A stretch of 37,943 nt of DNA, from positions 1-37,943 of the forward strand of contig CACYSG010000026.1 in assembly GCA_902776955.1 (NCBI GenBank). The letters are read 5' to 3'. Below are positions 5,418 through 34,230 of this stretch, piece by piece. Position 1 is the stretch's first letter. Each line of letters starts with the position of its first letter. The stretch is from an uncultured Bacteroidales bacterium (GTDB lineage: Bacteria; Bacteroidota; Bacteroidia; Bacteroidales; Muribaculaceae). The position numbers and the translations under genes were made by a program. The notes beneath the pieces are model-generated. The model was not told the origin of the DNA. It did not search any database and saw only the letters and a list, made by a program, of their open reading frames with translations.

Positions 5418-5493
5418 TAGTTAATAGTTAATAGTTAATGCTTCCTAAGGTCTAAAGTCTAAGGTCTAAGGTCTAAAGTCTAAAATCTAGAAT
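5411..5493. repeat. 7-bp word array joining two convergent stop codons
   Basis: From the nhaC side the words are repeats of TTAATAG; after CTTCC they become TCTAAAG/TCTAAGG. Read from the M1 gene, the phase starts exactly at its TAG stop (TAGATTT, TAGACTT, TAGACCT and so on, then CATTAAC, TATTAAC) and runs about twelve words without a phase break, reaching the nhaC stop. No hairpin terminator is visible between these two genes. Confidence 0.85.
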
Positions 5494-8155: not shown

Positions 8156-9915
<1,760 letters not shown>

Positions 9916-10442: not shown

Positions 10443-11960
10443 ATGAGACTATTTTCTAAATTAGCTTTTGCCACAGTGATAGCCGTGCTGCTGTGCGCTT
10501 GTGGCGGCAACGAGACAACCTATCAGTACAAGACGAAGTATATGCCCGTTCAGCTCGTGGGCAGCGAGAAGTGGAGCATCCTCGACGTGAACAGCGGCGA
10601 GGTCGTGGCCAAGGACGCCTTTGACCGGGCGCCGTCGCCCATCGTGGCCGATATGTTCTATGTGATGAACGACGATGGCAGCTATGACTACTATAACGTG
10701 AGTGCCCCCACCCAGCCGGTGGCAGGCCACTTTGGCAGCGTGACGTCCTTCAGCGACGATGGCGTCGCCGTTGCCAGCAAGGTGGGCGGCCCATTGTGCG
10801 TCATCGACCGCAACGGCAACATCGTCAAGCAGCTGCCCAACGAGGTTTCGCAGTGTTCCATGTTCTCGCGCGGCATGGCCGCTATCCAGAACGACAACGG
10901 CCTGTGGGGCTATATCAATGCCAGCGGCGACACCGTCATTTCGCCGATTTATAACAGTGCCAACATGTTCCTCTATGACGATTACGCCATGGTGATTGAC
11001 GAGCATCAGTCCAATGACAGTATTGTCATGTTCTCGGTCATCGACAAGACGGGCAGAGTCATGTTCACCAAGAGCAGCTCGGAATATCAACCCGTACAGC
11101 CCTACTTCATCAACGGCGTACTGCCCACGGTGAAAGGCGACTCGCTGGTGTGCCTGAACGAGAGCGGCAAGGAGGTCGATAACCCCATCAAGGACGACGA
11201 GAAGGTGAGCAAGGGCGGATATGACGATTACTCGCGCACCCCGTCGGGCGACTATGTCGTCATCAAGGGCAAGAAAGTCGGCTTGGTCGACAAGGACGGC
11301 AAGGAGCTGATTGCCATCAAGCATGACAACCTCATCGACATCAACGGCGAGCGCCTGATAGCCGTGGACGGCGACACCTATCACATCGTTGACCGCAACG
11401 GCAATGCCGTGGGCACAGCCAAGTTCAAGGACGCTCACGTGGCCGAGGACAACCCGTTTGCCACACGCGGCTTTATCGATACCGACCTGGCTGCGGCAGC
11501 CATGATGATGATGTTTGACGAGACCAGCGCCTGTGGTGCCGATGCCGAGACCTCCCTGATGGACATGAACCGCATGGTGGGCACCAATGCCGCCCCCTAT
11601 GTGGGCAGCAACAGCCTGATCGTTCCCCAGGGCCCATACATCATCCACTATGTGTTTGACAAAGAGGTCGCCAGCGCTAATGCCGACAGCACCAGCGCCG
11701 AATTCAACTACGACGCCAAGGTGAAATGTGTCATCATCTCGCTCGACGTGAGACACTGTCCCGCCAACACCGAGCCCACCGTTGTCAAGAAGATTGAGAA
11801 TCGCCTGGGTACCAAGGGCTTTGTGTTCGCCAGGGACGGCATCTTCTGCAGTGATCACCTGACAGCCCTGACAACGGGCTATGAGCAGGGCGTCATCAGC
11901 CTCATCTACTATATGCACTTCAACCAATCGGTTCCTCAAGACAAGAAGAAGAGGAGTTAG
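10443..11960 (+). CDS. WG-repeat lipoprotein
   Basis: 505 residues. The N-terminus is a lipoprotein signal (MRLFSKLAFATVIAVLLCAC, Cys20 lipidated). The body holds repeats of the WG/KWG type, clearest at LWGYINASGDTVISPIY (about residues 156-172), with weaker ones at KWSILDVNSGE and KVGLVDKDGKELI. Such proteins form beta-propeller-like folds on the cell surface or in the periplasm; no enzymatic role is known. The last 150 residues are outside the repeats and not recognised. queD lies 178 bp downstream in the same direction across a word-array spacer. Confidence 0.75.
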   Translation: MRLFSKLAFATVIAVLLCACGGNETTYQYKTKYMPVQLVGSEKWSILDVNSGEVVAKDAFDRAPSPIVADMFYVMNDDGSYDYYNVSAPTQPVAGHFGSVTSFSDDGVAVASKVGGPLCVIDRNGNIVKQLPNEVSQCSMFSRGMAAIQNDNGLWGYINASGDTVISPIYNSANMFLYDDYAMVIDEHQSNDSIVMFSVIDKTGRVMFTKSSSEYQPVQPYFINGVLPTVKGDSLVCLNESGKEVDNPIKDDEKVSKGGYDDYSRTPSGDYVVIKGKKVGLVDKDGKELIAIKHDNLIDINGERLIAVDGDTYHIVDRNGNAVGTAKFKDAHVAEDNPFATRGFIDTDLAAAAMMMMFDETSACGADAETSLMDMNRMVGTNAAPYVGSNSLIVPQGPYIIHYVFDKEVASANADSTSAEFNYDAKVKCVIISLDVRHCPANTEPTVVKKIENRLGTKGFVFARDGIFCSDHLTALTTGYEQGVISLIYYMHFNQSVPQDKKKRS

Positions 11961-12138
11961 GAGAGAAGAGAGAAGAGATAAGAGATAAGAGATAATAGTT
12001 AATAGTTAATAGTTAATAGTTGGCATCCGCTTCCTCTGCTTCCTCTGCTTCCTTTGTTTTATCCGTTTTATCCGTGCTTTCCGTTTTATCCGTGAGTGCA
12101 CGACCAACCAAAAAACAAAAACTAAAAAACAACATAAT
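11959..12138 (+). repeat. Spacer element: nine 7-bp words, seven 9-bp words, GTGCACGAC box
   Basis: Starting inside the TAG stop, bases 11959-12021 are nine 7-bp words in unbroken phase (AGGAGAG, AAGAGAG, AAGAGAT x3, AATAGTT x4). After GGCATCCG, bases 12030-12092 are seven 9-bp words (CTTCCTCTG x2, CTTCCTTTG, TTTTATCCG x2, TGCTTTCCG, TTTTATCCG). GTGCACGAC (12096-12104) and an A-rich run lead to the queD ATG. The mlaF-HD spacer has the same plan. Confidence 0.9.
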
Positions 12139-12489
12139 ATGTATTACGTACAAAAGACACTGGAGATTTCGTCGGCCCATATGCTGTTTCTCGACCACAA
12201 CAGCAAGTGCGAGAACCTGCACGGCCACAACTGGATTGTGAACGTCTATTGCAAGGCCAAAGAACTTGACGACAACGGCATGGTCACCGACTTCACCATC
12301 ATCAAGGAGATGGTGCACGGCAAGCTGGACCATAAGAACCTGAACGAAGTGCTGGACTTCAACCCCACAGCCGAGAACATCGCCCGCTGGATTGTCGACA
12401 TCGTGCCCAACTGCTACCGCGCCGACGTTCGCGAGAGCGCCAACAACCTGGCCATCTACGTCAAGGACGAGGACAACAATGTGGAATGA
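12139..12489 (+). CDS. queD: 6-carboxy-5,6,7,8-tetrahydropterin synthase QueD
   Basis: 116 residues, normal for QueD. It converts dihydroneopterin triphosphate to 6-carboxytetrahydropterin in preQ0 synthesis. The zinc ligands His14 (SSAH), His28 and His30 (LHGHN) and the catalytic Cys24 are present, as is the later DHKNLNE segment typical of the family. It precedes queE by 113 bp; the TGA stop lies inside the first 7-bp word of that spacer. No preQ1 riboswitch is visible upstream. Confidence 0.95.
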   Translation: MYYVQKTLEISSAHMLFLDHNSKCENLHGHNWIVNVYCKAKELDDNGMVTDFTIIKEMVHGKLDHKNLNEVLDFNPTAENIARWIVDIVPNCYRADVRESANNLAIYVKDEDNNVE

Positions 12490-12602
12490 GGAATGAGAAA
12501 TTAGGAATGAGGAATGAGGAATGAGAAATTAGGAATTCTAGAATATCTAGATTATCTAGATTATCTAGAGCATCTAGAAACTAGGGACTAAAAACTAAAA
12601 TA
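12483..12602 (+). repeat. queD-queE spacer element: eight 7-bp words, five 9-bp words, A-rich box
   Basis: Words GGAATGA/GAAATTA run in phase from 12483 to 12538; the queD TGA stop is part of the first. Five 9-bp words TCTAGANNN follow (12537-12581), then TAGGGACTAAAAACTAAAA and the queE ATG. The same sequence of parts, with five TCTAGANNN words, is found in the groES-groEL spacer. Confidence 0.9.
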
Positions 12603-13285: not shown

Positions 13286-13390
13286 CTAATCTCTAAACAG
13301 CGAGCGCAGCGAGCTTCACTAAACTCTAAACCCTACACGCTAAACTGCGAGCGCAGCGAGTTTCTCTAAACTGCGAGCAGGGCGAGCTTC
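13286..13390. repeat. CTAAAC words with GCGAGCGCAGCGAGC units downstream of fabD
   Basis: Three copies of a GC-rich unit (AGCGAGCGCAGCGAGC, GCGAGCGCAGCGAG, GCGAGCAGGGCGAGC) are separated by CTCTAAAC-type words. In the fabD sense they read as 9-bp steps (CTCGCTGCG, CTCGCAGTT). A similar unit, CTGCGAGCGATAGGGAGC, is at bases 18-35 of the window. Confidence 0.75.
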
Positions 13391-14269
13391 TTACTGGCGA
13401 CCTGACAGGACGACGTCGCGGTTGGTCTTGCCGATAAGGCCCTGGAGGACCTTGCCGGGACCCAGTTCCTCGGCCTCGGTCATGCCGTCGGCAACCATGT
13501 TGGCAACGATGTGGCTCCAGCGAACGGGAGCGGTAAGCTGCTGCAGCAGGTTGGCCTTGATTTCGGCGGGATCGGTGTGGGGCTTAGCGTCCACGTCCTG
13601 GTAGATGGGGCAAACGGGAGCCGAGAAGTCGGCAGCCTCGATAGCCTCGGCCAGTTCGGCGCGGGCAGGCTCCATCAGGGGCGAGTGGAAGGCACCACCC
13701 ACCTTGAGGGGCAAAGCGCGGCGTGCGCCGGCCTCCTTAAATTTCGCACATGCGGCCTCGATAGCGGCAATCTCACCCGAGATGACCACCTGACCGGGGC
13801 AGTTATAGTTGGCGGGGACGCAGATGCCGTCGATGGTGGCACAGATTTCCTCCACCTTGGCGTCGTCCATGCCGATGATGGCAGCCATCGTCGAGGGAGC
13901 GGCCTCGCAAGCCTTCTGCATGGCCAGTGCACGTGCCTCGACCAGTTTCAGACCCTGCTCAAAGGGAAGTGCGCCAGCGGCTACCAGTGCCGAGAACTCG
14001 CCCAGCGAGTGACCGGCAACCATGTCGGGCTTGAACTCGTCGCCCATGGTGAGGGCGAGGATGACCGAGTGCAGGAATACGGCGGGCTGGGTGACCTTGG
14101 TCTGCTTCAGGTCCTCCTCAGTGCCTTCAAACATGAGGTCGGTGATGCGGAAGCCCAGCACCTCATTGGCTTTCTCAAACAATTCTTTGGCCTGGGGATT
14201 GTTGTCATACAGGTCCTTGCCCATACCCACAAACTGTGCACCCTGACCGGGGAATACGAATGCTTTCAT
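13391..14269 (-). CDS. fabD: Malonyl-CoA:ACP transacylase FabD
   Basis: 292 residues. FPGQGAQFVGMG at residues 6-17, the nucleophile Ser88 in GHSLG, Arg113 and the partner His195 (GAFHSPLM) are all in place. It loads malonyl groups onto acyl carrier protein for fatty acid synthesis. No other fab gene is nearby. It lies between the two halves of the queuosine genes, downstream of queC, but has its own -7 box 55 bp upstream. Confidence 0.97.
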   Translation of the reverse strand: MKAFVFPGQGAQFVGMGKDLYDNNPQAKELFEKANEVLGFRITDLMFEGTEEDLKQTKVTQPAVFLHSVILALTMGDEFKPDMVAGHSLGEFSALVAAGALPFEQGLKLVEARALAMQKACEAAPSTMAAIIGMDDAKVEEICATIDGICVPANYNCPGQVVISGEIAAIEAACAKFKEAGARRALPLKVGGAFHSPLMEPARAELAEAIEAADFSAPVCPIYQDVDAKPHTDPAEIKANLLQQLTAPVRWSHIVANMVADGMTEAEELGPGKVLQGLIGKTNRDVVLSGRQ

Positions 14270-17012: not shown

Positions 17013-17158
17013 TATTGAGTGTTATTTTAGTTTTTAGTTGTCGTGCACGCGCGGATGGAACGGATGAAACGGATATAACGGATGAAACGGATATAACGGA
17101 GGAGGCGGTTGCTAACTATTATCTTTTATCTCTTATCTGTTATCTCTTATCTGTTATC
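17013..17158 (-). repeat. mlaF-HD spacer element: 7-bp words, 9-bp words, GTGCACGAC box
   Basis: In the sense direction six 7-bp words (GATAACA, GATAAGA, GATAAAA, GATAATA) run from 17158 to 17117, and the mlaF stop TAA is inside the first. After AACCGCC come five 9-bp words (TCCGTTATA, TCCGTTTCA, TCCGTTCCA), then GTGCACGAC (17048-17040), ACTAAAAACTAAAA and the ATG. The plan and the box match the spacer before queD. Confidence 0.9.
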
Positions 17159-17948: not shown

Positions 17949-18058
17949 TTTTTTTGAGACTTTAGACTTTAGACCTTAGACGTTAGACTTTAGACTTTAG
18001 ACTTTAGTGGATGCCAACTGTTCACTATTAACTATTAACTATTAACTATTAACTGTTA
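17949..18058 (-). repeat. mlaE-mlaF spacer: two kinds of 7-bp words
   Basis: In the sense direction the first word, TAACAGT, is the mlaE stop codon plus four bases; four TAATAGT words and GAACAGT follow in phase. After TGGCATCC (the same junction as before queD) come about seven TCTAAAG-type words, then an A run and the mlaF ATG. Confidence 0.9.
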
Positions 18059-18833: not shown

Positions 18834-18889
18834 ATCAAAAGTTTTAAGACCCTGGATTTTTAGGGCTTAAAAAATGGGAAGAATGGGAG

Positions 18890-18945
18890 CTATAGTGGCT
18901 ATAGTAGCTATAGGGACTATAGGGACTATAGGGACTATAGTGGCG
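18890..18945. repeat. 9-bp words with CTATAG core
   Basis: Six words CTATAGNNN (TGG, TAG, GGA x3, TGG) in perfect 9-bp phase, just past the stop of the LuxR-type regulator. Like the TCTAGANNN words, each has a 6-bp palindrome plus three free bases. Confidence 0.85.
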
Positions 18946-31438: not shown

Positions 31439-31531
31439 AAAGCTCTAACCTTTAAAATTATAACCTTTAACCCTTAACCTTTAACCCTTAAACTTTAACC
31501 CTTAAACTTTAAACTTTAACCTTTAAACTTA
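31439..31531 (-). repeat. mutS2-dcp spacer: ten 7-bp words
   Basis: In the sense direction the mutS2 TAA stop is followed without a gap by GTTTAAA, GGTTAAA, GTTTAAG and similar words, ten in unbroken phase, then a short unique stretch before the dcp ATG. No 9-bp words here. Confidence 0.9.
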
Positions 31532-33989: not shown

Positions 33990-34021
33990 CAAAATTAGTG
34001 CAAGTTGAGCGAAATGCCAAA
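33990..34021 (-). promoter_or_regulatory. Proximal mutS2 promoter (repeat copy 1)
   Basis: Minus strand: TTTG (34021-34018), 20 bp, TAATTTTG (33997-33990), then TACT and the ATG. The start site would fall at about the ATG, giving leaderless mRNA. Confidence 0.75.
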
Positions 34022-34058
34022 TTTATTTGGCCTTTTCCGAAACGCAGCCTAATTTATC

Positions 34059-34090
34059 CAAAATTAGTGCAAGTTGAGCGAAACGCCAAA
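34059..34090 (-). promoter_or_regulatory. Distal mutS2 promoter (repeat copy 2)
   Basis: Minus strand: TTTG (34090-34087), 20 bp, TAATTTTG (34066-34059). Its transcript would have a leader of about 70 bases. Confidence 0.7.
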
Positions 34091-34230
34091 TTTATTTGAG
34101 CATTTCCGAAACGCAGCCCGATTTCTGCATCTCTCGTCAAGTCCGACATCCATCAGCCTAATGGCGGGGAACTTTTAGGGCCATAAAGCAATTATTTCTC
34201 AAAAAAACCGTGGAATCCAAAAAAAATGAC

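Follow-up and report, generated by a model that had tools for sequence, protein, structure and literature searches.

Spacers between genes in the genome of an uncultured Bacteroidales bacterium hold many tandem arrays of short degenerate words, which have two nearly exclusive periods (7 and 9 bp), often run in phase with the upstream stop codon, use different vocabularies on the two sides of a spacer and turn over between species. We regard it as probable, with some reserve, that these are fast-evolving, lineage-specific tandem arrays (long simple sequence repeats of 7- or 9-bp words) whose layout is set mainly by what the neighbouring genes tolerate. A required function would then be absent, and the arrays look like fast-changing filler shaped by the bordering genes rather than an essential signal.

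Layout of four spacers

The window, that is, the whole stretch of DNA analysed, is a 37,943-nt contig (C26) of a genome of 3.23 Mb in 123 contigs (G000). The original prediction held that four co-directional spacers share an order of 7-bp words, 9-bp words and an A-rich box. Autocorrelation recovered this layout in all four, as a lag-7 block, a lag-9 block and last an A-rich stretch ahead of the start codon, always in the sense of transcription, and a further repeat search of the window recovered these arrays too; the best local match was 0.86–0.94 in the lag-7 blocks and 0.79–0.82 in the lag-9 blocks. The gene names proposed for the flanks also fit: a WG-repeat protein, a PTPS family protein (queD), a radical SAM protein (queE), Cpn10, Cpn60, an HD domain protein and an ABC ATPase adjoining an MlaE permease. 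The parts of these spacers and other arrays of the window are as follows.

11958..11960, plus strand: TAG stop of the WG-repeat protein gene (10443–11960), in phase with the heptamers
11959..12021, plus strand: nine 7-bp words of the WG–queD spacer (AGGAGAG ... AAGAGAT ... AATAGTT)
12022..12093, plus strand: 9-bp words of the WG–queD spacer, GGCATCCGC and seven more (TTCCTCTGC ... TTTATCCGT), family B
12094..12138, plus strand: GTGCACGAC segment and A-rich leader before queD
12487..12489, plus strand: TGA stop of queD, sharing the phase of the GGAATGA heptamers
12483..12537, plus strand: 7-bp words GGAATGA/GAAATTA of the queD–queE spacer, queD stop included, with a higher-order repeat of 28 bp
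12537..12578, plus strand: 9-bp words TCTAGANNA of the queD–queE spacer, family A
12573..12602, plus strand: A-rich heptamers ACTAGGG ACTAAAA before queE
9872..9913, minus strand: 7-bp words AATTAGR after groES
9831..9879, minus strand: 9-bp words TCTAGANNN of the groES–groEL spacer, family A
9797..9830, minus strand: A-rich heptamers before groEL
17113..17152, minus strand: 7-bp words AGATAAG/AGATAAC of the ABC–HD spacer, next to the mlaF-like ABC ATPase gene
17052..17100, minus strand: 9-bp words TCCGTTWYA of the ABC–HD spacer, family B
17013..17051, minus strand: GTGCACGAC segment and A-rich leader before the HD gene
5418..5484, no strand: convergent spacer with two heptamer arrays, period 7 only
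17954..18054, minus strand: spacer between the MlaE and ABC genes, two heptamer arrays (7–7 without 9)
18870..18940, minus strand: lone 9-bp array CTATAGNNN, upstream of a promoter-like site TAACTTTG
31461..31526, minus strand: heptamer array GTTAAAG, period 7 only

One of the four spacer edges first given was right and three were slightly off. The WG stop lies at 11958–11960 and its spacer at 11961–12138; queD ends at 12489, with a spacer at 12490–12602; and the ABC gene, on the minus strand, ends at 17154, with a spacer at 17013–17153. The probable source of these slips is the stop codon, which keeps step with the heptamers. The WG–queD spacer had been described as 63 bp of heptamers followed by 63 bp of nonamers. 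Nine heptamers do fill 11959–12021, but the description skipped GGCATCCGC ahead of the seven nonamers; judged by eye it is in phase with them, and the second block would then be eight words, or 72 bp. Since the arrays of the other three spacers measure 42/49, 46/42 and 40/49 bp (7-bp/9-bp), 63/63 has no general meaning. The A-rich box of queD–queE and groES–groEL is itself heptameric (ACTAGGG ACTAAAA). The four spacers fall into two sequence families, A (TCTAGANNN) and B (CATCCG/TATCCG nonamers), and are therefore not four independent inventions. Other repeats of the window are a degenerate 26-bp tandem repeat holding GCGAGC (13290–13391) and a 69-bp repeat in 1.9 copies (33990–34118).

Periods in the genome and in the order

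Periods were scanned in 60 stretches of 20 kb and the window, together 1.24 of the 3.23 Mb. The 881 genes of this sample were taken from a home-made caller with a simple dicodon model, so that start choices are approximate. The best lag-k segment was scored in each spacer of 30–1500 nt, excluding 14 longer spacers and all shorter ones; scores of at least 18 defined a strong array, at least 14 a looser cut and 11 a weak cut.

Strong arrays had period 7 in 51, period 9 in 38 and period 10 in one of the 488 co-directional spacers, and none of these spacers had one at periods 4, 5, 6, 8, 11, 12 or 13. Dinucleotide shuffles of the co-directional spacers never reached the threshold (three shuffles per spacer and period), nor did any in a five-shuffle run at periods 7–9. 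Coding regions (n = 881) had period 7 in none, 6 in three, 9 in three and 12 in two. Even at the weak cut, lags 7 and 9 (72 and 61 of 459 co-directional spacers) stood out from lags 8, 10 and 11 (8, 4 and 5). The enrichment of periods 7 and 9 in co-directional spacers, on which the original prediction was staked, was thus present in the sampled genome. The units lie head to tail more often than by chance, and they are intergenic and nearly absent from coding DNA, two of the traits that mark heptamer-class long simple sequence repeats.

A restriction to co-directional spacers was not borne out. Strong arrays occurred in convergent spacers (n = 77; period 7 in seven, 9 in two, 10 in three) and in divergent ones (n = 84; period 7 in two, 9 in two, 12 in one). 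Heptamers were as frequent in convergent as in co-directional spacers (7/77 vs 51/488, p = 0.84) and were rarer in divergent ones (2/84 vs 51/488, p = 0.014), while period 9 was more frequent in co-directional spacers than in the other two classes pooled (p = 0.016), neither class being significant alone (p = 0.10 and 0.15).

At the looser cut, 100 of the 488 co-directional spacers, about one in five, carried an array, which agrees with the view that the element belongs to spacers and not to a pathway. A fixed 7-then-9 design does not hold: 51 of the 100 had heptamers only, 34 nonamers only and 15 both, so that 85 had a single period. The 7-bp block came first in 13 of the 15 two-period spacers (binomial p = 0.007) and in 15 of 19 over seven sampled genomes, counts that are not fully independent because the arrays of one genome share words.

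Six further genomes had period 7 in 10/70 (G094), 6/71 (G082), 4/61 (G081), 4/72 (G061), 2/36 (G051) and 0/71 (G004) co-directional spacers; period 9 was found in 0, 2, 0, 1, 3 and 0 of the same spacers, and period 8 once, in G051. Across 79 named Bacteroidota loci (~1.32 Mb; one of 80, L114, was left out as every period scored there), strong arrays had period 7 in 19 cases, 9 in 10, 8 in four, 11 in three, 6 in two and 12 in two, and none had period 10. Four TAGs at lag 7, 8 or 9 were found in 164, 99 and 143 of 295 Bacteroidales genomes, in a scan that detects only TAG words, whose same-lag GAT counterpart is often non-zero and so gives no chance control, and many of whose lag-9 genomes have a single match that could lie in a gene. 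By hand count, about 49, 22 and 9 genomes had at least 20 such matches. The numbers at lags 7/8/9 were 630/0/265 in G000, 13/227/9 in G158, 288/203/0 in G185 and 0/0/204 in G330. The period is lineage-specific across these 295 genomes, with 8 common in some, and the pair of 7 and 9 is a trait of the G000 lineage and a few others (G308, G288 and G324 by hand count). A universal 7/9 step of polymerase or ribosome was rejected, as other Bacteroidales use 8.

Several related patterns occur in these genomes. TAG arrays of 8 bp, instead of or beside 7 bp, are numerous in G158, G185, G365, G289 and G382. GATC at lag 7, the reversed control pattern, gave 70, 45 and 32 matches in G051, G049 and G030, that is, heptamers with a GATC core replacing CTAG. 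A locus of 21.6 kb from a MAG labelled Tidjanibacter (L157) has four 7-bp arrays (e.g. AATTGAG) and four 9-bp arrays (e.g. CCCTTAAAG) between 365 and 16920, with no other period in the range 5–12 represented, which places the 7-plus-9 pair in another genus.

Placement and vocabulary of the arrays

Arrays had been expected to be placed non-randomly with respect to both stop and start codons; this proved true of the stop codon and untrue of the start codon. In G000, 45 of 84 heptamer arrays began within 5 nt of the stop, where uniform placement would give 10.9. The effect was weaker in the other six genomes (9/42, 4.5 expected), and nonamer arrays began there in 8 of 50 cases (5.0 expected). Ends within 5 nt of the start were found for 11 of 84 heptamer arrays (10.9 expected) and for two nonamer arrays (5.0 expected). 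With heptamers at the stop and nonamers in mid-spacer, the 7-then-9 order largely follows. The stop codon takes part in the phase: in the 45 cases the lag-7 match at its three bases was 0.58, 0.71 and 0.73, where 388 control spacers gave 0.24–0.32; the three preceding bases had 0.38–0.47, against 0.27–0.27 in the controls. Genes with an array at the stop also ended in TAG more often (17/45 vs 52/388 controls, p = 0.0001).

On the other side of the spacer, the last 20 nt before the start were 45% A with an array and 34% without. Shine–Dalgarno-like words were rare there (3% and 1% respectively), in accord with a report on Bacteroidetes (Baez 2019, PMC6847099). Because A-richness is seen also without arrays and Shine–Dalgarno-like words are scarce, the A-rich box is probably the ordinary initiation region. 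In 26 of the 27 spacers holding both, the motif TAnnTTTG, which we take to be the Bacteroidota promoter motif, lay on the 3′ side of the array. It was found in the last 70 nt of none of 49 spacers whose array ends within 40 nt of the start, where the array also occupies room, and of 71 of 360 arrayless ones.

Heptamer arrays in the first half of a spacer were mostly of TTAR type (55 TTAR, 17 CTAR, 6 ties) and those in the second half of CTAR type (37 CTAR, 9 TTAR, 2 ties) over seven genomes. Of the heptamer arrays of five genomes, 67/70 first-half and 42/43 second-half ones carried stops in every sense frame (shuffles 35.2 and 22.0). It is conceivable, if unlikely, that the arrays are translational insulators, in which heptamers after the stop catch read-through or frameshifted ribosomes, the A-rich heptamers form the initiation region and operon neighbours are thereby uncoupled. 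The sense stops, the in-phase stop codon with its excess of TAG and the A-rich leaders all fit, as does the overlap of queD and queE in 7 of 28 relatives at a junction where G000 has an array. But the antisense strand is nearly as stop-rich (57/70 and 39/43; shuffles 23.8 and 21.7): stop enrichment beyond the primary stop extends to all frames and both strands and is not frame-specific, and the words are thus generally rich in stops. Capture of ribosomes as a sufficient explanation is weakened accordingly. Further, two heptamer arrays of G051 (GGGGATC type) hold no stop in the letters inspected, no further frame is gained with period 9, the array is missing in many relatives, and Ho and Hurst (2019, PMC6764699) report that selection for additional in-frame 3′ stops is without evidence in bacteria.

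A further candidate is an RNA hairpin or terminator made by complementary heptamer arms (TTAG ... CTAA), which we hold to be highly improbable. Three of 29 arm pairs do match at 12 or more of 14 positions (e.g. L070 4859 and L087 11326, 14 of 14), yet arms swapped between spacers did at least as well (17% at this level vs 10% for true pairs), and hairpin arms were rejected on this ground. Median fold z in G000 was −2.17 with arrays (n = 60) and −1.37 without (n = 40), but it was not lower with arrays in G094 (−0.48 vs −1.96) or G082 (−2.46 vs −2.89; 7 and 6 array spacers), and fold z was not taken as evidence. Rfam at gathering scores returned no RNA family in the window besides a tRNA. A palindromic core with a three-base loop was also considered as the source of odd periods; on inspection it fits the TCTAGA, CTATAG and CTTAAG nonamers, but only about half of the common heptamers hold a 4-bp palindrome, and the idea was dropped.

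The resemblance between loci could instead be due to common descent, if whole 7-9-7 units had been copied between spacers as a dispersed composite module, by ectopic gene conversion or some unknown mobile process; this too seems doubtful to us. In family A (AATTAG words – TTCTAGA – ACTAGRR), at least 81 of the 120 bases of the queD–queE spacer can be aligned at eight further places in G000, with 83–87% identity. Family B (heptamers, core GTTGGCATCCG, 9-mers and a GTGCA...CGAC segment) is found at WG–queD and at C62:29609–29727 (80% over query positions 15–142), with a variant form in the ABC–HD spacer. In the sampled G000 spacers GGCATCCGC was counted 55 times, and 19 of these copies directly follow a heptamer array (23/71 with G082 added). 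Against copying of whole units, unrelated 9-mers also follow 7-mers (6 of 8 cases classed as 'other'), inspection by eye showed neither shared ends nor target duplications, and alignment of tandem words can mimic homology. Inverted arms scored no better than swapped ones (9.66 vs 9.70); in these 29 pairs the heptamer arms thus gave no sign of the terminal inverted repeats of a MITE. A second dispersed spacer module may be formed by AATT-phased 9-mers around GGCATCCGC (e.g. CGAATTACGCGAATTAAACAAATTGGCATCCGCGTTCAATTAAGCC), seen in G000 spacers such as L064, L075, L076, L090 and L223.

STRR heptamers of heterocystous cyanobacteria comprise several tandem heptamers per genome, as in G000, and we know of no 9-bp partner to them. 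Long simple sequence repeats with units of 5–11 nt occur sporadically among bacteria, heptamers being the commonest long unit in most genomes (Mrazek 2007, as cited in PMC4679880 and PMC4692102). Compared with that description, the words of G000 are degenerate and period 9 is a frequent second period, and screens for exact repeats would probably undercount them. In MacGregor 2015 (PMC4679880), TAACTGA direct repeats are described from spacers of Beggiatoaceae, Cyanobacteria and some Bacteroidetes, some spacers of the last also holding other heptamers. Like the G000 arrays, these are tandem heptamers between functionally unrelated genes, and in forward orientation they have stops in three frames and may extend across the upstream gene's end, so that all-frame stops and stop overlap have already been noted there for one heptamer. 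They are built, however, from a single word, found in the main genome mostly directly upstream of starts, whereas G000 has many words, two periods and heptamers preferentially at the stop; its arrays share the stop overlap and three-frame stops and differ in the word and in their chance-level ends at starts (11/84 within 5 nt, 10.9 expected). Neither the window nor the 331 loci compared contain two exact tandem copies of TAACTGA. The GGGAATC / GGGGA(C/T)T heptamers of Xanthomonas and Nostoc (Rehm 2015, PMC4692102), with 2–26 units in one species, resemble those of G000 in being degenerate, with conserved and variable positions, and over-represented between genes; unlike them they form G-quadruplexes from one core word. 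The same paper mentions three heptamers in Calothrix and describes short tandem repeats of such unit length in spacers as little studied in bacteria. Among the titles and abstract openings listed from the open-access literature, none gave paired 7- and 9-bp arrays. The G000 arrays are best read as a variant of the known heptamer arrays, bounded by the stop codon and by an initiation region or promoter.

Turnover at orthologous junctions

Among the named matches listed, the nearest GroEL relatives were Bacteroidales MAGs, the first five including labels uncultured Bacteroidales, Prevotellaceae and Paramuribaculum. Junctions were compared within the genus in the best 30 of 82 genomes with a GroES match and the best 30 of 94 with a QueD match, G000 included in each. 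In the 29 groES–groEL relatives (GroES 97–100% identical) the spacer varied from 18 to 150 nt, with an array in 4 at score 14 and 8 at score 12; over Bacteroidota relatives 8 of 104 such spacers had one. At queD–queE, an array was present in 13 of 28 relatives, and in the seven with overlapping genes (L287, L289, L293, L296, L298, L305, L307) the overlap was 14–17 nt. At WG–queD, 9 of 29 had an array. The 7-then-9 design is therefore not obligatory: the same junctions often show other words, no array or overlapping genes. The end of queD in G000 keeps ATGTGGAA just before the array, a sequence that seems to resemble the overlapping queE start of L287 and L289.

Words at these junctions change as well. 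TCTAGA words at queD–queE are common to G000, G015 and G047 (5, 3 and 6 copies), and other relatives have GTTAGGA, GTTAACA, CTAAAGT or GGCTTTA; many of them repeat the layout stop – TTAG words – CTAA words – start. Array copy number differs between species at the same junctions. The WG–queD nonamers look like an expansion of a core, GGCATCCG, of which G015 has one copy and G047 a shorter array. For 20 array-bearing gene pairs of G000 the median own spacer was 108 nt, against 63.75 in relatives, and for 20 arrayless control pairs with own spacers of 60 nt or more it was 101 against 101.25, a comparison in which three junctions supply 161 of the 180 array comparisons and the other 17 pairs one or two each.

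Word cores such as TCTAGA are fixed, and other positions variable, at many loci. Such cores (TCTAGANNA; ACTARRR) would be expected if each word were one site for a DNA- or RNA-binding protein. Words and periods vary, however, between species of one genus and one order, and the same junctions may lack an array, and we judge binding arrays to be quite improbable.

It had been argued that slippage must give identical words, an argument that finds no support here. Neighbouring words are more alike than distant ones, the match declining mildly from 0.86 to 0.79 at period 7 and from 0.83 to 0.75 at period 9 between neighbours and words five apart; together with the 28-bp repeat at queD–queE, this is the pattern that local duplication plus mutation would leave. 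Exact words were shared more often by array pairs of one genome than by pairs from different genomes (period 7, 0.184 vs 0.101; period 9, 0.107 vs 0.084).

The near confinement of periods 7 and 9 to spacers, the slope in word likeness, the turnover at junctions and the lineage-bound periods and words favour repeats of fast turnover. Such arrays would arise by short tandem duplication; their words would drift by point mutation with the phase kept, and whole words would be gained and lost and may be exchanged or spread between loci of one genome. Selection would set both edges. At the 5′ edge an array may start at the stop codon, often itself the first in-phase triplet, and nearly all heptamer arrays carry stop triplets; at the 3′ edge the promoter or A-rich initiation region must stay intact. 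By itself this neutral model leaves unexplained that heptamers start at the stop four times above uniform expectation in G000 (more weakly in six other genomes), the TTAR words on the 5′ and CTAR words on the 3′ side, the fixed cores such as TCTAGA, and the near absence of period 8 in G000 when it is common elsewhere. Array starts at the stop, the fixed cores and the pair of near-exclusive periods in one genome keep a functional reading alive, above all that of a translational insulator. We give only a low probability to a more general form of it, a spacer grammar free of vocabulary, in which lineages invent words and period and remake one layout: in-phase stop, stop-bearing words, words of a second period, A-rich words, and start or promoter. 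If true, this grammar would be a swappable translational insulator that parts neighbouring, sometimes formerly overlapping genes in organisms without Shine–Dalgarno sites.

In this genome a fifth of the sampled co-directional spacers are arrayed, the pair of periods being specific to the genome and the stop codon forming a boundary. The genus offers a hundred genomes for comparison, and in those examined a given junction may have an array, lack one or carry a different one. This variation among relatives makes the origin of heptamer arrays, their preferred unit lengths and the opening of spacers between overlapping genes testable by comparison.
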